NCBI RefSeq assembly: GCF_000143845.1
Contig: NC_014363.1
Location: forward strand, 62,001-126,000
Length of the DNA: 64,000 nucleotides
Reading direction: 5' to 3'
Source of the DNA: Olsenella uli DSM 7084
GTDB lineage: Bacteria > Actinomycetota > Coriobacteriia > Coriobacteriales > Atopobiaceae
The notes below the pieces were generated by a model. The model was not told the DNA's origin. It was given only the letters and a program-made list of their open reading frames with translations, and made no database searches. The translations under genes were made by a program, and so were the position numbers. Below are positions 2,083-16,586 of this stretch, piece by piece. Each line of letters starts with the position of its first letter. The first letter of the stretch is position 1.

Positions 2083-3036
2083 CTACAGGGACCTGAGCGT
2101 CGGGACCCCGATGCGCTGCAGCTGAAGCAGCGTGTCGGGGTCATTCGTGTCTGTGATGATGGCCGAGAAGTCCGTCAGCGACGCAAAGCGGAAACTACCC
2201 ACGTGACCGAACTTGCCCTCGTCGGCCAGGAGGAACTTGTAGGAGGCGTTGTGGATGACACGCTCCTTGACCGAGCCGGAATCTATGTCGTTGGAGGTCA
2301 CGGCCCAGCTCGTCAGGTCTATGCCACTGGCGCCTATGAATGCCTTCGAGAAGAGCAGGGGTTCCAGCAGGCTGACCGTCGCCGACCCCACGAAGCCATT
2401 GAGCTGCACGTTGAGGTAGCCGCCTGTGCCCAGGGCCGTGACGTTGCGTACGCCCGTGAGCTTGCGGAGCACTTCGATCATGTTGGTGGTCACGATGAGG
2501 CGCTTCTCGCCCGTGGCAATGAGGTCGGCCAGCATCGAGTTGGTCCGCGACACGTCGAGGAACACGCTGTCCCCATCGTTGATCTCGAGGTAGGCCCGAC
2601 GTGCGACGGCCCTTCGTCCGCCGTCGCCTTCGTCATCATCCCCCGTGACGGAGGTCCCCCCGAGTGCGTCGCGGGGGGGACTGGGCTTGGGGGCGCTTCC
2701 GATGAGCTCCCCTGTGCCAGGTCTCCCCTGGCCGCCAAGGGATGCGGCACTCGGCGCACCACCGAGCCCCGCGGAACCGATCAGCCCCTCAAGCTCGAGG
2801 CGACCCGTGAGGGAGGGAATGAGCTCGCGACCGCGCACCTCTCGGCGCAAGGGGCCTTCGAGACGCGTGGCACCGCCATAGACGCGGGTGCACTTGCCCT
2901 CCTTGGCGAGCGCCTGCAGGTCCTTGCGGATGCTGTCAACGCTCACCCCAAAGCGCGTGGCAAGGTCGTCGGTGTCGACACGGCCCTCGAGTTCCAACAT
3001 TCCCAGGATCTTGTCGCGTCGCTCGCGTCTGAACAC
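2083..3036 (-). CDS. DeoR-family transcriptional repressor with a low-complexity insert
   Basis: This is a sugar-pathway regulator of 317 residues, against about 250 usual for the family. Residues 1-57 are the DeoR helix-turn-helix (RRDKILGMLELEGRVDTDDL and SVDSIRKDLQAL). Residues about 145-317 are the sugar-phosphate sensor domain. Between them, at about 80-142, lies a Gly/Pro/Ser/Asp-rich insert absent from ordinary members. The usual sensor motif Asp-Ser-Gly-Thr-Thr reads DVSRTNS. The start is a GTG at 3036 with AGGGGAAGG upstream. The gene is divergent from the PTS operon and probably represses it from the 3037-3319 region. A sugar phosphate made by the pathway is the likely inducer. Confidence 0.87.
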   Translation of the reverse strand: MFRRERRDKILGMLELEGRVDTDDLATRFGVSVDSIRKDLQALAKEGKCTRVYGGATRLEGPLRREVRGRELIPSLTGRLELEGLIGSAGLGGAPSAASLGGQGRPGTGELIGSAPKPSPPRDALGGTSVTGDDDEGDGGRRAVARRAYLEINDGDSVFLDVSRTNSMLADLIATGEKRLIVTTNMIEVLRKLTGVRNVTALGTGGYLNVQLNGFVGSATVSLLEPLLFSKAFIGASGIDLTSWAVTSNDIDSGSVKERVIHNASYKFLLADEGKFGHVGSFRFASLTDFSAIITDTNDPDTLLQLQRIGVPTLRSL

Positions 3037-3161
3037 CGCCTTCCCCTCTCGGATCTCGCGATGGCATGGTGACCGTGTGGCCCTCCTTGTAAGGAAGGTG
3101 TACTAAAAGCGTGCTCATCCCTCCTTTTGTCCACAAGCGATGAACAAATTTCACATTCTTC

Positions 3162-3191
3162 TTGCAAAACAGGAAAAAACAGGAATAGTAT
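3162..3191 (+). promoter_or_regulatory. Predicted promoter of the first PTS operon with internal direct repeat
   Basis: TTGCAA (3162-3167) and TAGTAT (3186-3191) are separated by 18 bases. The spacer contains the direct repeat AACAGGAA, at 3168-3175 and again ending near 3185. The surrounding 100 bases are A/T-rich compared with the rest of the region. This is a likely site for the divergent DeoR protein. Confidence 0.5.
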
Positions 3192-3319
3192 GTGAACATC
3201 CTGAGGATGACGAGATGTATGCCATGCAGGATTCGCATGTTTTGTGAAGTGCAGAGGTCCCCATCGTCTCCGGTCCACGGGCCGAGATTACGGTGGGCCT
3301 CTAGGAGGGAGGGCGACAC

Positions 3320-3772
3320 GTGGCTACGATGGCAGACATGCTCAAGCGTGAGAACGTCCAGGTTGTCGAAACCTGCGGCGGCTGGGAGGATGCGATCGCC
3401 GTTGCCGTGCAGCCGCTGGTTGACGGGGGCTACGTCACGCCCGCCTACGTCGAGGGCATCATCGAGAACACCCACAAGTTTGGCCCCTACTTCGTCCTCG
3501 CTCCCGATCTCGCGCTTCTCCATGCCCGTCCTGAGCAGGGTGTCATCAGCCAGCAACTCGCCGTCACCGTCTTGCGCGAGGGCGTCGAGTTCAAGGAGGG
3601 CGAGCCCGTTCGCGTGCTTGTGACCCTCGCTGCGGAGAACCCCGACTCGCACATCGACGTCATGCGCGTCCTCGCCACCATGTTCTCCGATCCGAAGAAC
3701 ATCGAGAAGGTCGCCACCGCCTCGACGGCAGACGACATCTTTGGCTTCTTCGTCAGTGGCGGCGCCGAGTAA
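3320..3772 (+). CDS. PTS EIIA component, mannitol/fructose class, ascorbate-type system
   Basis: The 150-residue cytoplasmic EIIA takes phosphate from HPr and passes it to EIIB. The phosphorylated histidine is His68 in DLALLHARPEQGV, the typical ascorbate-type EIIA context. The GTG start at 3320 has GGAGGGAGGG 6 bases upstream; an ATG three codons later is an alternative. It is the first gene of the operon EIIA-EIIC-EIIB-tktN-tktC-deoC. It resembles the EIIA at 16122, so the two systems are paralogous, but the accompanying enzymes differ. The transported sugar cannot be deduced. Confidence 0.88.
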   Translation: MATMADMLKRENVQVVETCGGWEDAIAVAVQPLVDGGYVTPAYVEGIIENTHKFGPYFVLAPDLALLHARPEQGVISQQLAVTVLREGVEFKEGEPVRVLVTLAAENPDSHIDVMRVLATMFSDPKNIEKVATASTADDIFGFFVSGGAE

Positions 3773-3861
3773 CGACGGCTCGGCGGCGCCGATGGAAGCC
3801 ACTGGCGCGCGTCCATTCAGGCAAGCACGAAGCAGGTTCGTTTCGATTTGAAGGGGGAAAC

Positions 3862-5334
3862 ATGGCAGTACTCGACTTCATAGTCAACATTCTGTCGACG
3901 CCGGCTATCCTGGTCGGGCTCCTCGCCCTCATCGGCCTCGCCCTCCAGGGCAAGCCCGTCGAGGACGTCACCAAGGGCACCATCAAGACCATCGTGGGAT
4001 TCCTGGTCCTGTCGGCCGGTGCTGCGTTCTTGCAGTCCGGCTCCCTGCTCGCGTTTGGCGAGCTGTTCAACTACGCCTTCAACATGCAAGGCGTCGTTCC
4101 CAACAACGAGGCCGTCGTCGCCGACGCACTCCAGAACTTCGGCACCAGCTCGGCCATCATCATGGCCCTCGGCATGGCGTTCAACATCGTCCTGGCCCGC
4201 TTCTCCCGCATGCCCTACATCTTCCTGACCGGCCACCACACCCTCTACATGGCCTGCATGCTCGCTGTCATCCTCGGCGGTGCCGGCCACCTCGAGGGTG
4301 GCGCCCTCTATCTGGCGGGTGGATGCCTCCTCGGCCTGATCATGGTCCTCTCGCCCGCCTACTGTCAGGTCACCTTCCGTAAGGTCACCGGCTCCGACGG
4401 CGTTGCCCTGGGCCACTTCGGCGGCATCGGCTACTGGTTTGCCGGCGTCGTGGGCAGGCTCTTCGCCAACGACCCCAAGCGCAGGAGCACGGAGGAGATC
4501 TCCTTCCCCAAGCGTCTCGTCTTCCTGCGTGACACCACCGTCTCCATCTCCATCACGATGATGGTCTTCTTCCTCGTCGTCGTAGGAGTCGCCGTTGCCA
4601 AGGGCGTCCTGGGCATCGTCCCCGCGGGCACCGATCCCGCCTCCGCCTCCGCTCTCCTCGAGCCCTACGGCCTGACCGTCGCCAACGTGGGCGCACTGCT
4701 CAACATCGGCACCGAGACCACGACCAACTGGATCGTCTGGTCCCTCACCGCAGGCATGAGCTTCGCCGGTGGCGTCTACATCATCCTGTCCGGCGTCCGC
4801 CTGATCATCGGCGAGATCGTCCCCGCCTTCAAGGGCATCGCCGACAAGCTCGTCCCTGGCGCCAAGCCCGCCTTGGACTGCCCCGTCGCCTTCACCTACG
4901 CCCCCAACGCCGTCATCATCGGCTTCCTGAGCTCCTTCGTGGGCGGCATCATGGGCCTTCTCGTCCTCAACGGCATCAACGCCGCCATCCCCGTCGCCCT
5001 GATCCTTCCGGGCGTCGTCCCCCACTTCTTCTGCGGCGCCACCGCAGGCGTCTTCGGAAACGCCGAGGGCGGCCTCAAGGGCTGCATCGCCGGTGCCTTC
5101 GCGCACGGCCTGCTCATCACCTTCCTGCCCATGATCTGCATGCCCGTCTTCAACGCCCTGGGCTATGTGGGCACGACCTTCTCGGACGCAGACTTCTCCT
5201 GGATGGGCATCGTCTTTGGCAACGTCGTCAACTTCGCGCAGGGCGCCCTGCTCGTCGCCATCTGCGTCATCGTCTACATCCTTCCCATCGCCTATAACTT
5301 CGTGGCCCCCAAGAAGGAGCAGGCTACGGAGTAG
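3862..5334 (+). CDS. PTS EIIC permease, ascorbate family (UlaA/SgaT-like)
   Basis: This 490-residue membrane permease has about 10-12 hydrophobic segments. Family motifs are visible: IVGFLVLSAGA near the N-terminus, the repeated LVPGAKPALDCPVAFTYAPN segment, and HFFCGATAGVFGNAEGG near the C-terminus. AAGGGGGAA stands just before the ATG. UlaA-type permeases import a sugar that is phosphorylated by the partner EIIB. Here the order EIIA-EIIC-EIIB, with the split transketolase and DeoC behind, differs from the ulaABCDEF ascorbate operon. No UlaD, UlaE or UlaF homologue is adjacent, so ascorbate itself is not a safe call. Confidence 0.9.
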   Translation: MAVLDFIVNILSTPAILVGLLALIGLALQGKPVEDVTKGTIKTIVGFLVLSAGAAFLQSGSLLAFGELFNYAFNMQGVVPNNEAVVADALQNFGTSSAIIMALGMAFNIVLARFSRMPYIFLTGHHTLYMACMLAVILGGAGHLEGGALYLAGGCLLGLIMVLSPAYCQVTFRKVTGSDGVALGHFGGIGYWFAGVVGRLFANDPKRRSTEEISFPKRLVFLRDTTVSISITMMVFFLVVVGVAVAKGVLGIVPAGTDPASASALLEPYGLTVANVGALLNIGTETTTNWIVWSLTAGMSFAGGVYIILSGVRLIIGEIVPAFKGIADKLVPGAKPALDCPVAFTYAPNAVIIGFLSSFVGGIMGLLVLNGINAAIPVALILPGVVPHFFCGATAGVFGNAEGGLKGCIAGAFAHGLLITFLPMICMPVFNALGYVGTTFSDADFSWMGIVFGNVVNFAQGALLVAICVIVYILPIAYNFVAPKKEQATE

Positions 5335-5777
5335 CCATCAGCGTCCGCCTGGCGGTGGGACCGGGGTCGGGGGGTGCGGAATTCGCTCCCCGGCCCGCCT
5401 CTTAGGCAGACATTTGTCGTCTAAACGGACTTTTTTGCGCAAGCTATGTTGAACCACCTTCAATACTCGGTGGAGTCAGGTGACCGATGCGCCGTTCGCC
5501 TCGGCAAGCTCCTGTAGGCAATAGGTCTGCGACTCCTTGCGGGACGGGACGCATGACATGGCTCCGTCTCGCACGCAGCTGGTCACGCCATCATGTCGTC
5601 CTTCCCGGCACCGCTTGGGGGATGCGTTGCCCGCTGCGCGTGTCAGCTTTTTCAGTGCGTCTGCCCTGTGCTATCCCGGTCATCTTCCTGCCGGAAGGCA
5701 AAGCGAGTAGACTGGGGGCCGGTCGTTCTCACGCACCGCTCCCCACGGTGGTGTGACCCATAAAAAAGGAGAGCAAG
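5335..5777. other. Intergenic region between EIIC and EIIB with possible hairpins
   Basis: This 443-base gap is unusually long for the inside of a PTS operon. A GC-rich imperfect hairpin lies at about 5361-5400 just after the EIIC stop. Another small hairpin, CACCG/CGGTG, sits at 5737-5753 immediately before the EIIB ribosome site. Together these could down-regulate or separately regulate EIIB and the downstream genes. No protein-coding frame with a credible start was found. Confidence 0.45.
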
Positions 5778-6059
5778 ATGGCAATTCGCAAAATCATGTG
5801 CGCCTGCGGTTCCGGTCTGGGTTCCTCCCTCATCGTCCACATGAACACGGAGGAGGTCGTGAAGAAGCTCGGCCATCCGGAGATCGAGGTCGACCACACC
5901 ACCATCTCCGACGTCAACCCCACTGCGGCGGACCTCTTCGTCGTCGGGGCGGACCTGGGTGACTTCATCTCCAACATCCCCGACGAGCAGAAGGTCGTCC
6001 TGACCAACATCCTCGACAAGAACGAGCTCGAGCGGAAGATCGCCGCGCATCTGAGCTAG
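5778..6059 (+). CDS. PTS EIIB component, lactose/ascorbate type
   Basis: The 93-residue cytoplasmic protein has the phosphocysteine loop near its start: Cys10 in CACGSGLGSS. That is the hallmark of ascorbate/galactitol-type EIIB proteins. It receives phosphate from the EIIA and gives it to the sugar imported by the EIIC at 3862. AAAGGAG is 8 bases before the ATG. A long leader separates it from EIIC, while the transketolase genes follow closely. Confidence 0.9.
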   Translation: MAIRKIMCACGSGLGSSLIVHMNTEEVVKKLGHPEIEVDHTTISDVNPTAADLFVVGADLGDFISNIPDEQKVVLTNILDKNELERKIAAHLS

Positions 6060-6153
6060 GGTCGCCTCGCCTCGGGGGCCTATCCGCGCCCGAGCCTCTT
6101 TCCGTCGAGAAGGGCGCGTCTGCGTGCTCCCTGCCAACTAAGGAGTGAAGCTA

Positions 6154-7008
6154 GTGGAAGAGAAGGAACTCAGGGGCGTCAAGCTCCTTGCGGCCAAGGT
6201 CCGCCGCGACGTGCTTGCGATGCTCCAGCATCGTGGGTATGGCCATGTGGGCGGCTCGCTCTCCCTGGTCGAGGCCTACGCCGTCCTCTATGGCAAGCAG
6301 CTGCGCTATGACGCGGCCAACCCCCACTGGGAGGGGCGTGACCGCGTCGTGCTCTCCAAGGGCCATGCCGGGCCCGTCATGTATTCGACGCTCGCCGAGT
6401 GCGGCTTCTTTCCCACGGAGTGGCTCATGACGTTGAACGATGGGGGTACCAGGCTGCCGTCCCACACCGACCGCCTGAAGACCCCCGGGGTCGATGCGAC
6501 CACGGGCTCCCTGGGCCAGGGGACCTCAGAGGCCGCAGGCATCGCGCAGGCCCTTGCCATGAGGGGGTCGACGTCCTACACCTACCTCTTCGTCGGTGAT
6601 GGCGAGCTCAACGAGGGGCAGTGCTGGGAGGCATTCCAGTTCATCGCCGCCAAGCGCCTGAGCCGCTGCATCGTCCTCATCGACGACAACAAGAAGCAGC
6701 TGGACGGCACCACCGACGAGGTCATGTACAACTTCGACCTCGCAAAGAAGATGGAGGCCTTCGGATTTAGCACGCAGGTGGTCGACGGGCAGGACATCCG
6801 CGCCATCGACGCCGCCATCGACGCCGCCAAGCGGAACACGGAGACTGTCAACTGCATCGTGCTCGACACCACCAAGGGCGCGGGCGTCCCCTACTTCGAG
6901 CAAGCCGTCTCGAACCACTCCATGAAGTGGAACAACGATGAGATCAACCAGGCGACCGCCGAGGCGATCGCCCGACTCAACGACGAGATCGAGAGGGGTG
7001 AGGCGTAA
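6154..7008 (+). CDS. Transketolase, N-terminal (TPP-binding) subunit
   Basis: This is the first half of a split transketolase, 284 residues from the GTG at 6154, which has AAGGAG 8 bases upstream. A GTG at 6145 overlaps that ribosome site and is less likely. Motifs: GHVGGSLS, SKGHAGP, TTGSLGQG, and the thiamine-diphosphate signature GDGELNEGQCWEA ending in DDNK. With the next gene it moves two-carbon units between sugar phosphates such as xylulose 5-phosphate. The stop and the next start overlap (TAATG), so the subunits are translationally coupled. Split transketolases are often found in PTS or pentose operons. Confidence 0.9.
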   Translation: MEEKELRGVKLLAAKVRRDVLAMLQHRGYGHVGGSLSLVEAYAVLYGKQLRYDAANPHWEGRDRVVLSKGHAGPVMYSTLAECGFFPTEWLMTLNDGGTRLPSHTDRLKTPGVDATTGSLGQGTSEAAGIAQALAMRGSTSYTYLFVGDGELNEGQCWEAFQFIAAKRLSRCIVLIDDNKKQLDGTTDEVMYNFDLAKKMEAFGFSTQVVDGQDIRAIDAAIDAAKRNTETVNCIVLDTTKGAGVPYFEQAVSNHSMKWNNDEINQATAEAIARLNDEIERGEA

Positions 7009-7967
7009 TGTTCAAGCTCGCCGAGGACTGGGGCGCCGCCGGCAGGCCCTATCGCGATGCCGTCGTCGACACCCTGATCGACATGATGACAGGCGACGCG
7101 TCCATCGTCATGCTCGAGGCCGACCTAGGCGGCGCCTCGGGCACCCTCAAGATCCAGAAGGCGCTGCCCTCGCAGTTCATCGAGTGCGGCATCTCCGAGG
7201 CCAACATGATGGGCGTCGCAGCAGGCATGAGCTCCGAGGGCTTCATCCCCTTCGTCCACACCTTCGGGCCGTTCGCCACCCGTCGTGCCTTCGACCAGGT
7301 CTACCTGTCCGGTGCCTACGCCCACAACACCCTGAACATCTGGGGCTCCGACCCTGGCTTTACGGTGGGGGCCAACGGGGGCACCCACACCACCTGGGAG
7401 GACGTCGCGCTCATGCGGACCATCCCCGACGCCGTCGTCGTGGACGGGGCGGACCCCGTCCAGACCGAGTGGGTCGTCCGCGAGTTCTCCAAGTCCAGGG
7501 GCATCCACTACCTGCGCTGCGGTCGTAAGGCGTCCTACAAGGTCTACGAGGAGGGCTCGACCTTCGAGCTGGGCAAGGGCAACGTCATCCGTCGCGGCAC
7601 GGACGTGCTGATCGTGACCGCAGGCCAGCTTGTCAAGGATGCGCTCGATAGTGCCGACGGCCTCGAGGGGCAGGGCATCTCCGCCGAGGTCATTGACATG
7701 TTCTGCATCAAGCCGCTCGACGTCGATCTGCTCGTGTCGGAGTCTGCCGGCAAGCGTGCCGTCGTCACCTTCGAGAACCACGGCGTCATTGGTGGTCTGG
7801 GAGACGCCTGCGCGTCCGCTCTCATGGAGGCCGGCGTCGCCGTGCCCTTCAAACGCCATGGCGTCGTGGAGTCCTTCGGCCAGGTCGGTACCGCCGATTG
7901 GCTGCAAGCCACCTTCAAGCTCACCGCAGCGGATCTCGAGGAGACCGTGAAGTCCCTTCTCGACTAG
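7008..7967 (+). CDS. Transketolase, C-terminal subunit
   Basis: The 319-residue protein carries the pyrimidine-binding and C-terminal transketolase domains. Visible motifs are ECGISEANMMGVAAGMSSEG, containing the catalytic Glu that activates thiamine diphosphate, and the FGPFATRRAFDQ and GANGGTHTTWED segments. It completes the enzyme begun by the gene at 6154, with which it overlaps by one base. Placement between a PTS and deoC suggests that the imported sugar enters at the pentose-phosphate level. Confidence 0.9.
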   Translation: MFKLAEDWGAAGRPYRDAVVDTLIDMMTGDASIVMLEADLGGASGTLKIQKALPSQFIECGISEANMMGVAAGMSSEGFIPFVHTFGPFATRRAFDQVYLSGAYAHNTLNIWGSDPGFTVGANGGTHTTWEDVALMRTIPDAVVVDGADPVQTEWVVREFSKSRGIHYLRCGRKASYKVYEEGSTFELGKGNVIRRGTDVLIVTAGQLVKDALDSADGLEGQGISAEVIDMFCIKPLDVDLLVSESAGKRAVVTFENHGVIGGLGDACASALMEAGVAVPFKRHGVVESFGQVGTADWLQATFKLTAADLEETVKSLLD

Positions 7968-7972
7968 AGTTA

Positions 7973-8016
7973 CTCCCACATGGGGCCGCTCCCACATGGG
8001 ACCGCTCCCACACACC
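7973..8016 (+). repeat. 16-bp tandem repeat before deoC
   Basis: The unit CTCCCACATGGGGCCG at 7973-7988 is followed directly by CTCCCACATGGGACCG at 7989-8004 and by a partial third copy at 8005-8016. Each copy holds CCCA..TGGG, which can fold into a small hairpin. It fills the gap between the transketolase and deoC and may affect the deoC message. Confidence 0.8.
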
Positions 8017-8051
8017 ACACCGAGGGGCTTGTCGCCCGGAAGGACGGGGTC

Positions 8052-8693
8052 ATGAGGCTCAACCAGTACATGGACCACACGCTGCTCAAGCAGGACGCAA
8101 CCAAGTCGCAGCTCGACAGGCTGTGTGACGAGGCCGCCGAGCACGGCTTCAAGACCGTCTCCATCAACTCATGCTGGACCAGGCACTGCGCCGAGCGGCT
8201 GGCTGGCACGGGCGTGGGCATCACGAGCTGCATCTCGTTCCCCTTGGGCGCCTGCTCCACGGCTGCCAAGGCCGCCGAGGCCAGGCAGGCGGTGGCAGAC
8301 GGCACCACCGAGATCGACATGGTCCTCAACGTGGGGCGTCTTGTCTCTGGCGATGACGACTACTGCACGGAGGACATCCGTGGGGTGGTCGAGGCGGCGG
8401 ACGGCCGTCCCGTCAAAGTGATCCTCGAGGTGTGTCTGCTTGATGACGAGCAGATCGTCCGCGCCTGCAAGTGCGCCGTGGCGGCAGGCGCCGCGTTCGT
8501 GAAGACCTCCACGGGCTTCTCGACCGGCGGGGCCACCATCCATGCGGTCAAGCTCATGCGCCAGACCGTGGGCGACGCCTGCCAGATCAAGGCTGCGGGT
8601 GGCATTCACACCAAGGAAGAGGCGCTTGCGATGATCGAGGCGGGTGCCGACCGCATCGGAGCCTCCGCCTCCATCGCCATCTGCGAGGGGTAG
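8052..8693 (+). CDS. deoC: Deoxyribose-phosphate aldolase
   Basis: This 213-residue class I aldolase cleaves 2-deoxyribose 5-phosphate to acetaldehyde and glyceraldehyde 3-phosphate. The Schiff-base lysine is Lys151 in FVKTSTGFS, and the relay residues Asp89 (EIDMVLNVG) and Lys180 (QIKAAGGI) are present. The ATG at 8052 fits the family N-terminus (MDHTLLKQDAT follows). An upstream extension of 24 codons would read through the 16-bp tandem repeats and is rejected. The gene is the last of the first PTS operon. Either the sugar is a deoxy sugar, or the enzyme is used for a related short-chain aldol cleavage. Confidence 0.92.
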   Translation: MRLNQYMDHTLLKQDATKSQLDRLCDEAAEHGFKTVSINSCWTRHCAERLAGTGVGITSCISFPLGACSTAAKAAEARQAVADGTTEIDMVLNVGRLVSGDDDYCTEDIRGVVEAADGRPVKVILEVCLLDDEQIVRACKCAVAAGAAFVKTSTGFSTGGATIHAVKLMRQTVGDACQIKAAGGIHTKEEALAMIEAGADRIGASASIAICEG

Positions 8694-8704
8694 CATGCGG
8701 CTAC

Positions 8705-8736
8705 AGGGCCCGTCTGTGCCACTGGATCCGGGCCCT
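8705..8736 (+). terminator. Hairpin after deoC
   Basis: AGGGCCCG at 8705-8712 pairs with CGGGCCCT at 8729-8736, with a 16-base loop. No T run follows, so it may only protect the 3' end rather than terminate by itself. Confidence 0.45.
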
Positions 8737-8823
8737 CCTGGCCTAGAATGACCCCGGACGATAGGGAGGCGGCTGTGATTGCGCATGCCGCTGCGCGCCT
8801 GTGGGGAGGGCTGTCCTTTGCAC

Positions 8824-11800
8824 GTGGGAGTCGACAAGAGACGGGTCCTGAAGGTCGCAGGGTGGGCTGCGGGATCGGTCCTGCTGGTGGCCGTGGTCGC
8901 GGCCAACGTCGCGGCCGTGATGTTCGGCGAGACGCTCGAGTCGTTTTTGAGCACCGACAAGATCGACGTCACGGATACGGAGCGCCAAGCCCAGCTTGCG
9001 CGTGACGCAGCGCTGGCAGGTGAGGTCGAAGGCGGGGGGCTCGTTCTTCTCCAGAACCGCAATGCGATCCTGCCCCTGGCGAAGGACGTGACGAAGGTCA
9101 ACGTCTTCGGATGGGGCTCGACACAATGGGTGACGAGCGGCTCGGGTTCGGGAGGCGTCGCGGGTGAGAGCGCAGGCATCCTGGACGCGCTGACCAGTCG
9201 TGGCATCCAGTACAACGAGGGACTTGCCCAGATGTACCGCGACTTTCAGGCCGACAGGCCATGGAGGGACGCGGGTACGTTGAACTCGCGCGCGACGGAG
9301 TTCTGCCGTCTGTACGATCCGGACATCTCCGACGAGGGCTACTACTCCCAGCAGCTGCTTGACAGTGCCAGGGACTACTCCGACACGGCGATCGTGGTGC
9401 TGTCGCGCATGGCGGGCGAGAGCATCGACTGCCCCCGCGAACAGCTGCGCGTCCGTACGAAGGGGGCCTCGCCGGAGTGCGCGATGGGCCGCAGCTACCT
9501 GGAGCCCTCTCCCGAGGAGGAACGTCTCGTCAGGTACGTTGCCGCGAACTACCAAAACGTGATCGTGCTGGTGAACTCGACCAACGCCATGGAGCTGGGC
9601 ATCGTCGAGGACGTCGAGGGGGTCGACGCCTGCCTGCTCTGTGGTGCCACGGGCACCGACTCCGCCGGGGCGGTGGTGGATGCGCTCTGGGGTGACGTGA
9701 ACCCATCGGGGCGCACGACCGACACCTATGCCTACGATTTCAGCACCAATGCGAGCTATGCCAACGCTGGCGCGGAGGGGGAGGGCTGCTACGTTGGCTC
9801 GCGCGGGCTCTACCCGGCAGACGGTACTCCCGACACGAACGAGGGCGTCGCCGCAACGTACGACACGGTCCGCTTCGTCGACTATGTCGAGGGAGTCTAT
9901 CTGGGATATCGCTGGTATGAGACGGCTGATGCCGAGGGATACTGGGACGACGTCTCCAACCGCCATGGCATGGGGTATGCCGCCGTGGTGCAGTACCCGT
10001 TTGGCTATGGCCTCAGCTACACGGCATTCGATTGGAAGATCGTCTCGCGCAGGCCACGCCGTGGCAGTAACCTGGCAGACGATGACACCGTCACGACGAC
10101 GGTGCGCGTGACCAACGTCGGGCCTGTTGCGGGCAAGGACGTGGTGGAGCTCTATGCGACGCCTCCCTACATCGCAGGTGGCATCGAAAAGCCCTCTACC
10201 GAGCTTGTGGCCTTCGCGAAGACCGACTTGCTGCAGCCGGGAGAGTCACAGGACGTGGTGCTCAGCTTCACGACGCGCGACCTGGCAAGCTACGACTGCT
10301 ACGACGCCAACCACAACGGCTTTGCGGGCTACGAGGTCGAGCGTGGCGACTACCAGGTCGAGCTCAAGCGCGATGCCCACACCCTGGATGACTGCGCCCA
10401 TGCGAGCGCCACCTATCATGTGGACCATGACATTTGCTACGAGACTGACGCCACAACCGGGGCTGCGGTCACCAACCGCTTTACGGGAGACGTCGCGGAG
10501 GCCGGCATCTCGATCGACGGGGTGACGACGGGCGCGGGCATCCGCTACCTCACACGCGCCGACTTCAAGGGAAGCTTCCCCCAGACGCGCGACGTGGACC
10601 GTCCCATGTCCAACGCCGTTCAGATCTTCAACCGCTATGACGCGGGCCTCGCCACCGCCCAGGATGCCGCCGCGAGTCGCGGGGCGTCCGTGGGTTCGGA
10701 AGCATCGGGGCCCGATGACGTGACTCGCGAGGGTGATGCGTCGCCCACGGCCGACGCCGACGAGGCCGCTCCCGCCGCGTCAGGCCTCGCATCGGCATAT
10801 GCCCTCACGTCGAACGGGGCACTCACGCCCCTGGGTCGCGAACTGGGAGAAGACTACAACGACCCGCGCTGGTCACCCCTCCTCGATCGCCTGGGCCAAA
10901 GCGAGATGGAAAGGTTCGTGCTGCATGGGTACTCCAACTCAGGAGCACTCGAGGGGGTTTCGAAGCCGCGTACCAAGGACCTGGACGGGTCGTCTCAGGC
11001 GGCGTCGTTCAATCAGCTGAGATACGGGACGGGCTTCCCCAGCCCCACGGTCCTGGCCCAGACATGGGACACCCAGCTTGCCCGTCGCTATGGGAGGGCC
11101 GTGGGCATGGAGTGCGCCATGCTCGGCATCGACGGTTGGTACGCGCCGGCATGCAACCTGCATCGCTCGCCGGTGGGCGGGCGCAACTACGAGTACTACT
11201 CGGAGGACCCGCTCGTCTCGGGTGAGATGGCCGCACAGACCATCCTGGGATCGAAGGAGACGGGCACCTTCTGCTACCTCAAGCACATGGTGCTCAACGA
11301 GCAGGACTCCTACCGGGACTCGCTCTACACCTGGCTGACCGAGCAGTCCCTGCGGGAGCTGTACCTCGAGCCGTTCCGCATTGCCGTAGAGGAGGGGGGC
11401 GCCACGGGAATGATGAGCTCATACAACCGCATCGGCGCCATCTGGACCGGTGGCAGCAGGGCGCTGCTCACGGAGGTGCTGCGCGGCGAGTGGGGCTTCC
11501 GGGGTTCGGTCATCACAGACTACAGCGACCATCACAGCTACATGAACGCAGACGAGATGCTGCGTGCGGGAGGCAGCCTCTACATGGATGGCGTGTTCCG
11601 CGACGGCTCGTTCCGCTTCGGGACCGATTCGCCCAACTTCCGCGCCTGCCTGCGCCGCGCCACCAAGGATGTCATCTACGCCTGGCTCAATGCCCGTGCG
11701 GCAAACCTTGCCTACAACGATGCGGCCCTGCAGGCGGGCACGGCCACGATCGACCGACCCCTCAAGCACCGGGGCGTCTCGCCGGTGCTCGTGGGCATAT

Positions 11801-11895
11801 CCGTGGTAGATGCGGTTGCGGCGCTGTGCGTTGCCGTCAAGGCCCACAGGGTGCTCAGGAGACGCGCACGGAAGAAGGGGCACGCAGGAGAGTGA
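8824..11895 (+). CDS. Glycoside hydrolase family 3, reversed domain order, anchored at both ends
   Basis: The 1,023-residue enzyme probably cleaves beta-glucosidic or similar bonds outside the membrane. The domain order is permuted: the GH3 C-terminal domain comes first (LVLLQNRNAILPLAKD near 62), then a fibronectin-like domain (VELYATPP... LQPGESQDVVLSF), an Ala/Asp/Ser linker at about 615-660, and last the catalytic barrel. The nucleophile is Asp899 in SVITDYSDH; NLHRSPVGGRNYEYYSEDP is also typical. A membrane helix lies near residues 8-28, and a second near the C-terminus is followed by basic RRRARKK, so both ends should be inside. I chose the GTG at 8824 because GGGAGGG lies about 13 bases upstream; in-frame TTG 8779 and ATG 8785 are alternatives. 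Reversed GH3 enzymes are known from rumen bacteria. Confidence 0.88.
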   Translation: MGVDKRRVLKVAGWAAGSVLLVAVVAANVAAVMFGETLESFLSTDKIDVTDTERQAQLARDAALAGEVEGGGLVLLQNRNAILPLAKDVTKVNVFGWGSTQWVTSGSGSGGVAGESAGILDALTSRGIQYNEGLAQMYRDFQADRPWRDAGTLNSRATEFCRLYDPDISDEGYYSQQLLDSARDYSDTAIVVLSRMAGESIDCPREQLRVRTKGASPECAMGRSYLEPSPEEERLVRYVAANYQNVIVLVNSTNAMELGIVEDVEGVDACLLCGATGTDSAGAVVDALWGDVNPSGRTTDTYAYDFSTNASYANAGAEGEGCYVGSRGLYPADGTPDTNEGVAATYDTVRFVDYVEGVYLGYRWYETADAEGYWDDVSNRHGMGYAAVVQYPFGYGLSYTAFDWKIVSRRPRRGSNLADDDTVTTTVRVTNVGPVAGKDVVELYATPPYIAGGIEKPSTELVAFAKTDLLQPGESQDVVLSFTTRDLASYDCYDANHNGFAGYEVERGDYQVELKRDAHTLDDCAHASATYHVDHDICYETDATTGAAVTNRFTGDVAEAGISIDGVTTGAGIRYLTRADFKGSFPQTRDVDRPMSNAVQIFNRYDAGLATAQDAAASRGASVGSEASGPDDVTREGDASPTADADEAAPAASGLASAYALTSNGALTPLGRELGEDYNDPRWSPLLDRLGQSEMERFVLHGYSNSGALEGVSKPRTKDLDGSSQAASFNQLRYGTGFPSPTVLAQTWDTQLARRYGRAVGMECAMLGIDGWYAPACNLHRSPVGGRNYEYYSEDPLVSGEMAAQTILGSKETGTFCYLKHMVLNEQDSYRDSLYTWLTEQSLRELYLEPFRIAVEEGGATGMMSSYNRIGAIWTGGSRALLTEVLRGEWGFRGSVITDYSDHHSYMNADEMLRAGGSLYMDGVFRDGSFRFGTDSPNFRACLRRATKDVIYAWLNARAANLAYNDAALQAGTATIDRPLKHRGVSPVLVGISVVDAVAALCVAVKAHRVLRRRARKKGHAGE

Positions 11896-11948
11896 CCCGC
11901 GTGCCCCAGGGATGCCCGAAGCGATCAGCCGTCGCGCGATGGGAACGG

Positions 11949-12500
11949 CTAGAACTTGACCTGAGGAGCCTGTCGTGCGGCGGCATCCTCGATCTCGAAG
12001 CCCCTGCGCACGGTGAACTTTGATCCCGCGACGATGTTGCCGGGGAAGGTCTCGATCGCGTTGTTGTACCCCAGCACGCAGTCGTTGAAGCTCTGGCGAG
12101 CGTAGCTGATCTTGTCCTCGGTGTCCGTGAGGTCTCCCTGGAGCTGCTGAAAGCCAGCGTTTGCCTTGAGGTCGGGATAGGCCTCGGCAACGGCAAACAG
12201 GTGGCCCAGGGTCTGGCTCAGCTGGTTGGAGGCCGCCATCTTGGCCTCGGGCGTGGTTGCGGCGTTGACTGCGGCGCGGGCGCTGGTGACGGCCTCGAGG
12301 GTCTGGGACTCGTGGGCGGCGTAGCCCTTCACGGTCTCCACCAGGTTGGGGATGAGGTCGTTTCGACGCTGCAGCTGCGCGTCTATGGTCTGCCAGGCGT
12401 TGTCGCAGCGGTTGTCCTTGGCGACGATGCCGTTGTAGATCGAGACGAACCACACGCCAAGTACGACGACGAGGGCAATGACGAGGATGACGAGAGCCAT
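11949..12500 (-). CDS. LemA family membrane protein
   Basis: This is a 183-residue LemA protein. One membrane helix lies at about 2-20 (LVILVIALVVVLGVWFVSIYN). The conserved helical domain follows, with the family motifs NAWQTIDAQLQRRNDLIPNL and YNNAIETFPGN. LemA proteins are inner-membrane proteins with a large helical cytoplasmic or external domain and no settled biochemical role. GAAGGGA precedes the ATG. The gene converges on the GH3 gene and is followed upstream by tRNA-Ser, with no obvious operon partner. The usual companion peptidase (HtpX) is not next to it. Confidence 0.92.
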   Translation of the reverse strand: MALVILVIALVVVLGVWFVSIYNGIVAKDNRCDNAWQTIDAQLQRRNDLIPNLVETVKGYAAHESQTLEAVTSARAAVNAATTPEAKMAASNQLSQTLGHLFAVAEAYPDLKANAGFQQLQGDLTDTEDKISYARQSFNDCVLGYNNAIETFPGNIVAGSKFTVRRGFEIEDAAARQAPQVKF

Positions 12501-12641
12501 GTCCGGTCCCTTCTTTGCGGGGCGGGCCCTATGCCAGCCCGGAACGTTCGCGTTGCAAAGCTTGGGAGAAGTATACCCGTACGCGCCAGGCGGATACTCG
12601 TTCGTCGCATGGCGTGATGGGCGGACGGGAGCCCGAGCGGG

Positions 12642-12729
12642 CGGAGGAGGAGGGATTCGAACCCTCGGTGCGGGATTGCCGCACGACGGTTTTCAAGACC
12701 GCTGCATTCAACCACTCTGCCACTCCTCC
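12642..12729 (-). tRNA. tRNA-Ser (anticodon UGA)
   Basis: On the minus strand a complete class II tRNA can be folded. The acceptor stem is GGAGGAG (12729-12723) with CTCCTCC (12649-12643). The T stem is 12650-12654/12662-12666 around the loop TTCGAAT, and a long variable arm is present. The anticodon loop CTTGAAA gives anticodon TGA. The 88-base length with a long variable arm fits serine. CCA is not encoded. Confidence 0.95.
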
Positions 12730-12789
12730 GTGGCCGGGCGGATATATCCTACCTCATACAAGCAGGCATGCGACACGGAAAGGCCTTGC

Positions 12790-13281
12790 ATGGACGAGCG
12801 AGACGACACCCCCACGGTCGAGGATGAGCGCTTCATGGGACTTGCCCTGGAGGAGGCATGCATTGCTGCCACGGAGGACGAGGTTCCCATTGGGGCGGTC
12901 GTCGTGTGTGGCGGTGAGGTGATCGCGCGCGCACACAACCGCCGCGAGACGGACGGGGACCCCTCCGCCCATGCCGAGTTCTCCGCCATGGTCCAGGCCG
13001 CGCGCGCCCTGGGGCGCTGGCGTCTGACGGGTTGTACCGTCTATGTGACGTTGGAGCCCTGCCTCATGTGCGCGGGCCTCATGGTGAACGCCCGCGTGGA
13101 CCGCTGCGTCTATGGGGCCGCAGACCCAAAGGGCGGTGCCGTGGGCACGCTCTACGACGTGAGTGATGACGCTCGCCTCAACCACTCCTTCCCCGTGACC
13201 GCAGGTGTGTTGGAGGATGAGTGCGCCCAGATCCTGCGTGACTTCTTCCGCGTACGGCGCAAGGCGAGGGAAGCGAGGTAG
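12790..13281 (+). CDS. tadA: tRNA adenosine(34) deaminase
   Basis: The 163-residue zinc enzyme converts A34 to inosine in the anticodon of tRNA-Arg(ACG). The active site is clear: His61 and Glu63 in the HAE motif, and Cys91 and Cys94 in EPCLMCAG. The ATG at 12790 gives the normal family length. A longer frame upstream would run through the antisense of tRNA-Ser and is rejected. It is transcribed away from the tRNA-Ser gene, whose 5' end lies 60 bases away. Confidence 0.94.
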   Translation: MDERDDTPTVEDERFMGLALEEACIAATEDEVPIGAVVVCGGEVIARAHNRRETDGDPSAHAEFSAMVQAARALGRWRLTGCTVYVTLEPCLMCAGLMVNARVDRCVYGAADPKGGAVGTLYDVSDDARLNHSFPVTAGVLEDECAQILRDFFRVRRKAREAR

Positions 13282-13363
13282 CCAACCCCCTGCCGCCCCG
13301 GGGCCCAAAGCGACCGTTTACCGTCGAGGGGGCGTAGTGGCCGACAAGTTCTTCCAAGGAGGG

Positions 13364-13426
13364 TTGTGTGAGAGGCAGGGACTGCCTATAGTACATAAAT
13401 GTACGGACATTAGGACATACGGACAT
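13364..13426 (+). promoter_or_regulatory. Promoter of the second PTS operon with phased GGACAT operator
   Basis: TTGTGT (13364-13369) and TATAGT (13387-13392) are 17 bases apart. Directly behind lie a palindrome GTACAT-AA-ATGTAC (13391-13404) and three GGACAT copies at 13405, 13413 and 13421, spaced exactly 8 bases. AATGT-ACGG-ACATT (13398-13411) is a further inverted repeat. Position over the transcription start suggests a repressor site, probably for the GntR protein encoded at 15300. Confidence 0.7.
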
Positions 13427-13481
13427 TTATCGCTTTTGGTGCCGCTAGCCTCAGCGTGCTTGGACACAGGAAGGAAGTTAG

Positions 13482-14327
13482 ATGTATACGACGCTTCAGA
13501 ACGTTCTTGCGGAGGCTGATCAGCTCAACATGGCTGTCGGCGCGTTCAACACGCACAACCTCGAGATGGTCCAGGCCATCGCCAAGGCGGCAGGCAACCA
13601 GAAGACGCCAGTCATCATCCAGACATCCGAGGGCACGGCGAAGTACGTCGGCATGAGGACTCTCGTTGCCGTGGTCAAGTCACTCGCCGAAGCGCTCGGC
13701 GTTGATATGGTCCTCCACCTTGACCATGCGAAGAGTTGGGACAACATCCGCGAGGCCGTTGACGCGGGCTACACCTCAGTCATGTTCGACGGCTCCGCAC
13801 TCCCATTCAAAGACAACATCCTCGGGACAAGGCGCGTTGTCGAGTATGCGCATGCCGCCGGCGCGTCTGTCGAGGCAGAGCTTGGAACTGTTGGCGGCAC
13901 TGAGGACGGCCTTGTCGTCAATCCAGATGCAGCCAAGCTGACCGATCCGGATGATGCGGTCGAATTTATCGAGAGGACCGGCATTGATGCGCTGGCTGTG
14001 GCAATCGGCACCAACCATGGCCAGTACAAGTCGAAGACAAGCATCAACCTCGACGTCCTTGAGTCGATCCATCAGGTTGCAACCAAGCCGCTCGTCATTC
14101 ACGGAGGTACCGGCGTGTCTGACGCCGACGTCCACAAGGTCATCGACCGCGGCATCAGAAAGTTCAATGTCGGCACCGAGCTTCTTGTCCAGTGGAATCG
14201 CAAATCCAAGGAGCTCTATGAGGCCCACAAGGAAAATGTCTCTAACCGCGACAATGTCGTACCGGCACTCGAAGTGGTGCAGGGCATTGTCGAACGGAAG
14301 ATCAGCCTCTTCAAGAACATCAGGTAG
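13482..14327 (+). CDS. Class II fructose/tagatose-bisphosphate aldolase
   Basis: The 281-residue zinc aldolase is of the FbaA/GatY/KbaY type and cleaves a ketohexose 1,6-bisphosphate to dihydroxyacetone phosphate and glyceraldehyde 3-phosphate. Zinc and phosphate motifs are visible: HLDHAKS, VEAELGTVGGTEDG, GTNHGQYK, and LVIHGGTGVSDADV. A good promoter and operator precede it. The next genes are a PfkB kinase and a GntR regulator, then EIIA, EIIB and EIIC. This suggests a route of PTS uptake, second phosphorylation, then cleavage here. Whether the substrate is fructose-, tagatose- or sorbose-bisphosphate cannot be told from sequence. It is not the only such gene, since 63351 starts a second. 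Confidence 0.9.
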   Translation: MYTTLQNVLAEADQLNMAVGAFNTHNLEMVQAIAKAAGNQKTPVIIQTSEGTAKYVGMRTLVAVVKSLAEALGVDMVLHLDHAKSWDNIREAVDAGYTSVMFDGSALPFKDNILGTRRVVEYAHAAGASVEAELGTVGGTEDGLVVNPDAAKLTDPDDAVEFIERTGIDALAVAIGTNHGQYKSKTSINLDVLESIHQVATKPLVIHGGTGVSDADVHKVIDRGIRKFNVGTELLVQWNRKSKELYEAHKENVSNRDNVVPALEVVQGIVERKISLFKNIR

Positions 14328-14367
14328 CGGCCGCGTCCCGTCGGGGGGATTTGGAAGGGGGGGGAAG

Positions 14368-15303
14368 GTGAGCATCTGCTGCATCGGGCAGTCTGCCTAC
14401 GACATTACGGGACGCGTGGACGGGGACCTTCGTCCTGATACAAAGTATCGCATGGAACACCATACAGAGTCTCCCGGCGGTCCGGCCTTGAATGGTGCGT
14501 GCGTCTGCGGCCTTTGGGGTGCCGACGTCTCCCTCGTGTCCCGCATCGGCAAAGACGCGTATGGCGCGCGGATAACGGAGTCCCTTGGACGCTACGGCGT
14601 TAAGACCGAGCTCATGATCGTGGACCCAGAGGCGAGAACGTCACTCAGCCTCATCGTGACGAATGGAGCGACGGGTGGAAGGACCATATTCAACTTCCCC
14701 TCGCCCCATGGGCCTGTTGCTCGGATGGCGCTACCGGACGACGCCCCGTCAGTCATGCTGCACGACGGGCATGAGCCAGAGGCTAGCCTCGAATACATGC
14801 ACGCCTTCCCAGGCGCACTGAACGTCATCGATGCCGGAACCTGTCGCGAAAGCACGCTATTGGTCGCGCGCCTGGCCGACTACCTCATTGCGTCGCAATC
14901 CTTCGCGACCCAGTATCTTGGGCATGGCCTGACATTGGAAAACGATGCCCGGCTTGCAGCCGAGCTCGTGGAATTGCGCGAGATAAATGGAAGGCGGGTG
15001 GCTGTAACCCTTGGAGAGTTAGGGTCCGTTTACCTCGGGGAAGATGGCCTGGTGCGCATGCCTGCATTCAAGACGCGAGTCTGCGACAGCACGGCTGCGG
15101 GCGATATCTTTCATGGGGCGTTCACCTTTGGCGTCCATGCGGGTCTTTCCATGCGTGACAGCATGGTTTTGGCAACGATGGCGTCATCCGTTTCCGTTTC
15201 ACGGTCTGGGAGCCAGACGTCAATCCCATCTTTGCCAGAAGTGCGCGAGCAGCTCCTGTCCAAGGGGATCGCCATTGGCTTGGGGAGAGGTGGTGAGTCA
15301 TGA
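14368..15303 (+). CDS. PfkB-family sugar kinase
   Basis: The 311-residue ribokinase-fold protein probably adds a second phosphate to the sugar phosphate delivered by the neighbouring PTS. The N-terminal signature SPGGPALNGACVCGLWGADV and the C-terminal signature DSTAAGDIFHGAFTFG, with the catalytic Asp in AAGD, are present. The family consensus has DTTGAGD. The start is the GTG at 14368, with a GGAAGGGG-type site close upstream. It lies 40 bases after the aldolase and overlaps the GntR gene by 4 bases (ATGA), so it is translationally coupled. The exact sugar is unknown. Confidence 0.87.
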   Translation: MSICCIGQSAYDITGRVDGDLRPDTKYRMEHHTESPGGPALNGACVCGLWGADVSLVSRIGKDAYGARITESLGRYGVKTELMIVDPEARTSLSLIVTNGATGGRTIFNFPSPHGPVARMALPDDAPSVMLHDGHEPEASLEYMHAFPGALNVIDAGTCRESTLLVARLADYLIASQSFATQYLGHGLTLENDARLAAELVELREINGRRVAVTLGELGSVYLGEDGLVRMPAFKTRVCDSTAAGDIFHGAFTFGVHAGLSMRDSMVLATMASSVSVSRSGSQTSIPSLPEVREQLLSKGIAIGLGRGGES

Positions 15304-16064
15304 CGCGTCACGTGAGCAACGGGACAGAAGACACGCCCTTGCCTAACAACCTCTCTCGTGAACAGCTGTATTACCAGCTGTATAACATCGTCTTCCAAGA
15401 CATCACCAATGGGGTCTATGAGGTCGGCGACCTGATCCCCTCGGAGACCGAGTACATGCAGAAGTTCTCGGTCAGCAGGGCGACCGTCCGTAAGGCAATG
15501 GAGATGCTCGTCAATAACGGCCTTATCGTCCGCCGCCGCGGCTGTGGCTCGGAGGTCGTCTCTGCAAAGCCTGCGACTGCGCTCCGTAGCGTGGAGTCGT
15601 GCATTAAACGGCTTACATCCGACCACGTGATTCCCATCAAGTGCGTTGTCTCTGCGGAAATGACCACGGCTGGGAAGGATGTCGCGGATGCGCTGAACGT
15701 TCGGACGGGCTCTTCGGTATACCGTCTCGAAAGGGTGCGTTGCGCAGGGGAGACCGCCTATTATCGCGAGACGATCTTCCTTGCCGACGACTATGCGCCC
15801 GCCATCCTCGAGCACGACTTCTCCAGGGAGTCCCTCCGTGCCTATTACTCCAATGTCTTGCACGTTAGCTGGGCTCGCGCAAACCAGCAGGTTTTTGCGG
15901 TCCCCGCCGATGGGGACACGGCGCGGCTTCTGGGCATTGAGCCAGGCGTTCCGGTGCTTCTGCTAAGACGAACCTCATTCGATGAGTCGGGCATTCCCCG
16001 TGAGTACCTGGTCGCCTCGTACAGGACTGATCATTACTACCTCGATATGACCTTAGAGGCATAG
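15300..16064 (+). CDS. GntR/HutC-family regulator (UTRA domain)
   Basis: This is a 254-residue regulator. Residues about 18-88 hold the GntR winged helix (GDLIPSETEYMQKFSVSRATVRKAMEML). Residues about 100-250 are the UTRA ligand-binding domain (YRLERVRCAGETAYYRETIFLADDYAP). It sits inside the operon between the sugar kinase and EIIA, overlapping the kinase gene by 4 bases. By analogy it represses its own operon at the GGACAT array at 13391-13426, and the sugar phosphate releases it. A second GntR/UTRA protein at 57839 controls the third PTS cluster. Confidence 0.9.
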   Translation: MTRHVSNGTEDTPLPNNLSREQLYYQLYNIVFQDITNGVYEVGDLIPSETEYMQKFSVSRATVRKAMEMLVNNGLIVRRRGCGSEVVSAKPATALRSVESCIKRLTSDHVIPIKCVVSAEMTTAGKDVADALNVRTGSSVYRLERVRCAGETAYYRETIFLADDYAPAILEHDFSRESLRAYYSNVLHVSWARANQQVFAVPADGDTARLLGIEPGVPVLLLRRTSFDESGIPREYLVASYRTDHYYLDMTLEA

Positions 16065-16121
16065 CGCGAGCGGGCTCTGGGGCCCTCAGGTCTCCGATTC
16101 AACATTTTCTCAGGGGGGAAT

Positions 16122-16586
16122 ATGGCAGAGGAAGCAAGTGTCACCGACCTTCTCAGGCCCGAGAACATACAGGTTGTCGATAGCGTTGCAAACTGGGAAG
16201 ACGCCATTCGCATCTCGTTGAAGCCCCTAATCGAAGGGGGATATGCAGAACCGAGATATGCAGACAACATAATCGCAGACACCAGGGAACTCGGCCCCTA
16301 TTACGTCCTTACCGAGGATGTGGCGCTCATACACGCCCGCCCCGAGGAGGGTGCCATCAAGAAGCAGATGGCAGTCACCTTAGTGCATCGGCCCGTCACT
16401 TTCCCAGAGGGCTCCTTCCCTGTCAGGCTGCTGTTCGCCCTGTCGGCAGAAGACTCCCACTCGCATATAGAAGTCATCAAGATGCTTGCCAGCATCTGCA
16501 TGGAGGAGTCTCGGGTGGAAGACCTAGCAACATGCGAGACCCCAGAAGAGATTTATCGCCTGCTTACCGCTGTGGCCGGCGGGTAG
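16122..16586 (+). CDS. PTS EIIA component, ascorbate-type (second system)
   Basis: The 154-residue EIIA is paralogous to the one at 3320. The phosphohistidine is His71 in DVALIHARPEEGA. AGGGGGGAA lies just before the ATG. It takes phosphate from HPr and passes it to the EIIB at 16647. It follows the GntR gene within the same operon. Base composition is somewhat less GC-rich at third positions than the first system. Confidence 0.88.
   Translation: MAEEASVTDLLRPENIQVVDSVANWEDAIRISLKPLIEGGYAEPRYADNIIADTRELGPYYVLTEDVALIHARPEEGAIKKQMAVTLVHRPVTFPEGSFPVRLLFALSAEDSHSHIEVIKMLASICMEESRVEDLATCETPEEIYRLLTAVAGG

Follow-up and report, generated by a model that had tools for sequence, protein, structure and literature searches.

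The window analysed is the whole stretch of 64,000 nucleotides from Olsenella uli DSM 7084 (contig NC_014363.1, positions 62,001 to 126,000), and hosts on its forward strand a gene encoding a member of the glycoside hydrolase family 3 (GH3). The open frame spans 8779-11895 (+) and counts 1038 codons from TTG 8779. The start codon is ambiguous: GTG 8824 and the in-frame ATG 8785 are both candidates, and TTG 8779 is a further alternative. Residues are numbered from GTG 8824 unless the 1038-residue numbering is indicated. The features of the gene are as follows.

8824..11895, +, gene of a permuted, probably double-anchored GH3 enzyme, predicted beta-glucosidase; 1023 aa from GTG 8824
8854..8925, +, TM1, hydrophobic part of the N-terminal helix, predicted N-in; residues 11-34; AF2 helix 5-42; basic inner flank
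8905..8907, +, Asn28, conserved polar residue in TM1; N 71, T 22, S 8, G 7, D 2, Y 1, Q 1 of 112 close relatives
8959..8964, +, residues 46-47, bridge or strand just outside TM1 by DSSP on the AF2 model; 43-44 in the L097 model
9040..9909, +, alpha/beta sandwich, Pfam GH3_C; residues 73-362; PF01915, 90 bits
9418..9420, +, Glu199, predicted acid/base; invariant in alignment A2; aligns with Glu458 of TnBgl3B (2x40)
10138..10371, +, fibronectin type III-like (Fn3) domain; residues 439-516; PF14310
10690..10788, +, disordered linker from the Fn3 part to the barrel; residues 623-655; pLDDT < 50
11011..11526, +, (beta/alpha)8 barrel, Pfam-matched part; residues 730-901; PF00933, 100.6 bits
11518..11520, +, Asp899, predicted nucleophile; invariant in alignment A2; aligns with the TnBgl3B Asp that is Ala in entry 2x42
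11764..11769, +, residues 981-982, bridge or strand just outside TM2 by DSSP on the AF2 model; 975-976 in the L097 model
11782..11838, +, TM2, C-terminal helix, basic tail predicted inside; residues 987-1005; AF2 helix 987-1022
11809..11811, +, Asp996, conserved acid in TM2; D 90, R 7, N 4, T 3, E 3, other residues or gap 5 of 112 close relatives

The GH3 gene is found among sugar-phosphate genes, which occupy the interval 2083-16586 of the window and encode a DeoR-type regulator, PTS EIIC-GAT, a split transketolase, DeoC, a class II aldolase, a PfkB kinase, a GntR-UTRA regulator and PTS EIIA/EIIC. The upstream PTS and transketolase genes are common to few relatives. LemA and TadA genes were found in 12 and 15, respectively, of 30 tested loci of relatives; the linkage is read as a sign of common descent and says nothing about function. 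A scan for promoters and terminators found nothing.

Pfam domains are arranged in the order GH3_C (88-377), Fn3-like (454-531) and GH3 barrel (745-916; all in 1038-residue numbering), each above cut-off, and the window GH3 is therefore permuted. Both the barrel, with its catalytic Asp, and the sandwich domain score above the curated cut-offs of the family, and the order sandwich, Fn3, barrel is found in sequence and fold alike, as in the permuted GH3 subfamily of GlyA1 type (ABS-FLD-ABB). The AF2 model, obtained from 66 sequences, has a pLDDT of 90.6 and a pTM of 0.91, with values of about 74-83 pLDDT in the TM helices. Its residues 47-980 align end to end with both permuted enzymes of solved structure, 5k6l-o and 5wug/5wvp (Z 35.1 for 5k6o, 39.2 for 5wvp), and canonical GH3 structures match it by halves only. 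The reversed domain order claimed in an earlier note on this DNA is borne out by the Pfam matches and the structural alignment, and the structure prediction proposed there as a check confirms the permuted fold. Asp899 and Glu199 are invariant across the 66 rows of alignment A2, which comprises P0001 together with 65 of the 80 named loci, those left out being mostly near-duplicates; L070, which is cut off, was excluded from the alignments. The position of Glu458, the TnBgl3B counterpart of Glu199, was counted from a printed alignment, and Glu458 has a catalytic role.

The permuted topology was already known from GlyA1, an enzyme of a rumen metagenome described in 2016 (PMC5104943; PDB 5k6l-5k6o). 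GlyA1 shares with the window GH3 the sandwich-Fn3-barrel order, the fold over model residues 47-980, the Asp nucleophile and the Glu acid/base, but its aligned part begins as early as chain residue 3-5, too near the start for a TM1 to precede it, and in place of TM2 it has a C-terminal domain for which PMC5104943 expects a lectin-like character. The best structural match is the beta-glucosidase of Paenibacillus barengoltzii (5wug, 5wvp), similarly permuted (rmsd 2.7 over 724 residues), which differs because its aligned part has no end helices and its C-terminal region is longer. BrGH3A, a permuted rumen GH3, has the same domain order and is a beta-glucosidase active on laminaribiose; in contrast, it has 814 residues, lacks a signal peptide and is proposed to be intracellular (PMC11233000). 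Bgl3B of Thermotoga neapolitana (TnBgl3B, 2x40) features the same three domains and catalytic residues, but in the canonical order barrel-sandwich-Fn3, and the permuted ends fall at its barrel/sandwich joint.

Only two regions of the window GH3 exceed 1.6 in Kyte-Doolittle windows of 19 residues, residues 16-34 (2.29) and 987-1005 (2.36), the next best value being 1.16. Membrane helices were called on hydropathy and charge. The search for relatives returned 356 candidate permuted ORFs, corresponding to 289 distinct ones; once incomplete frames were left out, 276 remained. A strong hydrophobic segment precedes the enzyme in 273 and follows it in 259 of these, and segments scoring at least 1.6 are found at both ends in 257. 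As a control, random 125-residue stretches of soluble core carried such segments at both ends in 2 cases out of 276. In a small canonical GH3 control, none of seven complete proteins had both helices, and none had the N-terminal one. Among the close relatives (class A, in which 112 of 115 rows had both ends), 101 of the 111 complete proteins pass the hydropathy threshold at both ends, and 100 of 112 have the more positive flank of TM1 and of TM2 alike on the cytoplasmic side. The both-end failures listed in a set of 218 have C-terminal segments scoring mostly 1.32-1.58; L209 and L210 lack TM2. Hydropathy, the AF2 helices and the charge bias all agree with the membrane helix with basic cytoplasmic flank proposed in the earlier note for each terminus; homologues devoid of helices, which would have spoken against it, are not the rule.

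Some relatives are differently organized at the termini. Proteins of the remoter class B, from Lachnospiraceae and Bifidobacterium (L198, L163 and L222 are examples), have an extra helix before TM1, hence three helices and an N-terminus predicted outside. In place of the two helices, a remote permuted GH3 (L181, genome G282) begins with a typical signal peptide and ends in a PNTGD-like sortase tail. Twin-arginine export of the window GH3 was considered and not kept, as KRRVLK only partly matches the twin-arginine motif, and is unconserved. The N-terminal helix of another permuted relative (L173, genome G166) follows the sequence TRRKFIG, which resembles the same motif.

Both helices host a conserved polar residue. 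The TM1 site is N, T or S in 101 and the TM2 site D or E in 93 of the 112 close relatives. Conservation within TM2 peaks at the Asp996 site; within TM1, Ala30 (74/112) is slightly more conserved than Asn28. The median distance to the inner basic residue is 18 residues for the TM1 site and 13.5 for the TM2 site, and that to the outer charge 8 and 10, respectively; the two sites are therefore located at roughly similar depth. In four relatives (L059, L097, L160, L230) the acid is swapped to TM1 and TM2 carries an uncharged polar residue, and in three others acids are found at both sites. A group rich in Bifidobacterium has lost both polar residues (S/W in 21, A/I in 4 of 96 class B rows).

The association of the two sites was evaluated on a FastTree phylogeny of the soluble core, built from 265 rows having both helices at a lower threshold of 1.4, relatives lacking a helix being thereby excluded. 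When N/T/S in TM1 is set against D/E in TM2, 8.2 independent pairs are concordant, 0.4 discordant and 18.3 unchanged (median p 0.016, uncorrected); the polar pair had first been spotted in part of the data used for this test. The association is weak if Asn alone is set against the TM2 acid (9.6 vs 3.3, p 0.146). Of 26 TM1 columns compared with the TM2 acid, the Asn28 column gives the strongest association. When every TM1 column is set against every TM2 column, 624 pairs in all, the polar pair comes third (p 0.0215), and no pair remains significant once corrected for 624 tests. The two pairs ahead of it are (-7,+10) and (-1,+1), expressed as offsets in alignment columns relative to the polar sites; within each pair the offsets are opposite in direction, as antiparallel helices would give. 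The covariation is taken as support, not as proof, of a relationship between the two sites.

The ends of the permuted chain plausibly lie close to each other. In TnBgl3B, which is canonical, residue 285 is the last of the barrel match and the counterpart of the post-TM1 region begins at 295, 10 residues further on, and the permuted chain therefore starts and ends at one former barrel/sandwich joint. In GlyA1 the first and last segments pair as a two-stranded sheet (described in PMC5104943). In the AF2 model of the window GH3, two-residue strands (46-47 and 981-982) are separated from TM1 and TM2 by four to five residues, and are found also in the model of L097, one of the relatives with the swapped acid. 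The two strands may pair with each other; the adjacency of the chain ends in the window GH3 is supported but not proven.

The domain order, the catalytic residues, the two end helices with basic inner flanks and the conserved polar residues together make it probable that the protein is a cell-surface beta-glucosidase standing on two adjacent antiparallel legs, paired by polar contact in the membrane. TM1 would be inserted N-in, running from inside to outside at the N-terminus; the entire enzyme would fold outside, and TM2 would run from outside back to the cytoplasm. The circular permutation would bring N- and C-terminus together at what was once the joint of barrel and sandwich, and the helices would therefore exit the enzyme side by side. 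TM1 and TM2 could then pair in antiparallel orientation through Asn, Thr or Ser on one and Asp on the other; Asn28 and Asp996 may share a hydrogen bond, which would also pay the cost of burying an acid. Such a mount would keep the active site at the membrane in a fixed orientation and at a fixed height, and the glucose set free there may be imported. We infer that the enzyme acts outside the cell on short beta-glucosides, followed by import through a transporter. An extracellular loop fixed at two points had been imagined in the earlier note: the two end helices agree with it, but the covarying polar residues and the adjacent ends go beyond that proposal and suggest a paired mount. More tentatively, the permutation of GH3 might have been kept in gut and oral Gram-positive bacteria because the ends meet, the outcome being a general two-legged mount with an intramembrane Asn-Asp lock, present in many copies in some genomes.

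The polar residues may bind a partner, either a second copy of the enzyme or a sugar transporter, instead of each other, both helices still being anchors. Polar residues in helices often mediate oligomers, and in several branches the acid has no polar partner in TM1 (I/E and V/E, 8/31 in class A2). We consider this rather unlikely, because the swap of the acid and the joint loss of the polar residues in the Bifidobacterium-rich group are most simply explained by a contact between TM1 and TM2, and because no conserved transporter neighbour was found in the 30 loci of relatives tested. A homodimer in which TM1 of one subunit touches TM2 of the other is compatible with these observations.

In a different reading, which we hold improbable, the N-terminal helix is a cleaved export signal, and the mature enzyme is anchored by the C-terminal helix alone. 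Signal peptide and C-terminal helix form a common layout, featured for example by HypBA2 (as reported in PMC7263609), and L181 has a typical signal peptide. Yet the N-terminal helix is long (AF2 5-42), and no conserved cleavage site is apparent, the columns after TM1 being variable. Moreover, a conserved TM1 residue covarying with TM2 would be functionless once cleaved. It is very hard to believe that the C-terminal segment is a sorting signal for a sortase-like enzyme and no lasting anchor: a hydrophobic stretch followed by a basic tail looks alike, but the stretch carries a mid-stretch Asp in 90/112 relatives, an LPxTG-type motif is absent from the window protein, loose sortase-like patterns occur in 9/112 relatives, none of them LPxTG, and sortase anchoring was rejected.

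Permuted GH3 enzymes are known; the systematic double anchoring and the presence of a conserved polar residue in each helix appear to be new. The earlier note was not aware of any description of double anchoring, and consistently no GH3 with helices at both ends was found described in searches of open-access papers; the word transmembrane is absent from both the GlyA1 (PMC5104943) and BrGH3A (PMC11233000) papers. If most of the permuted family is two-legged, the permutation gains a testable reason, the adjacency of the ends, and soluble constructs miss part of the biology. Many beta-glucosidases of gut Firmicutes, Coriobacteriia and Bifidobacterium would then have to be assigned to the cell surface instead of the cytoplasm. 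Two point changes in the conserved polar pair would be a simple handle on the assembly of the membrane mount.

Permuted GH3 genes are widespread. A pattern scan of named genomes matched 528 stretches, 506 of which encode a relative. The best 80 of the 506 come from Olsenella and other Atopobiaceae, Lachnospiraceae, Faecalibacterium/Gemmiger, Bacilli, Clostridia and one Bifidobacterium. In the family of the source organism 97/140 genomes match at E <= 1e-50, the weaker matches looking canonical, and 68/140 at E <= 1e-100. Five further genomes were taken as starting points for their own families, each analysed at its own threshold, and matches were found in 8/119, 27/200, 37/151, 67/151 and 31/146 genomes. 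Five out of 13 genomes have eleven or more matches, some of which are possibly pieces of one gene. As early as 2016, 289 permuted sequences were counted in Firmicutes, Actinobacteria and even Archaea, mostly from animal guts (PMC5104943). Rarity of the permutation, assumed in the earlier note, is contradicted by that count and by the 506 relatives and 68 family genomes reported above, and was rejected.

The O. uli genome hosts other GH3 genes. A second permuted GH3 with two helices (984 aa) is located at C1:1974228-1981582 beside a canonical GH3 of 857 aa, which has a hydrophobic C-terminal tail and lacks an N-terminal helix; a further GH3 frame is found nearby. A canonical GH3 similarly follows closely the permuted one at L057, L073, L076 and L105. 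Permuted and canonical neighbours are possibly pairs of outside and inside enzymes. The type strain of O. uli hydrolyses esculin and produces acid from salicin, as stated in PMC3035265. Both phenotypes fit a beta-glucosidase, the activity of the window gene being predicted, and are not assignable to this gene because the genome has other GH3 genes.

Long frames also occur. The frame at G016:C1:1572858-1579034 (L029) encodes about 2370 aa in which the set of GH3 domains is present twice, and is apparently made of permuted enzymes fused in tandem; other long frames were noticed in two of the other families, those with 37/151 and 67/151 matching genomes.
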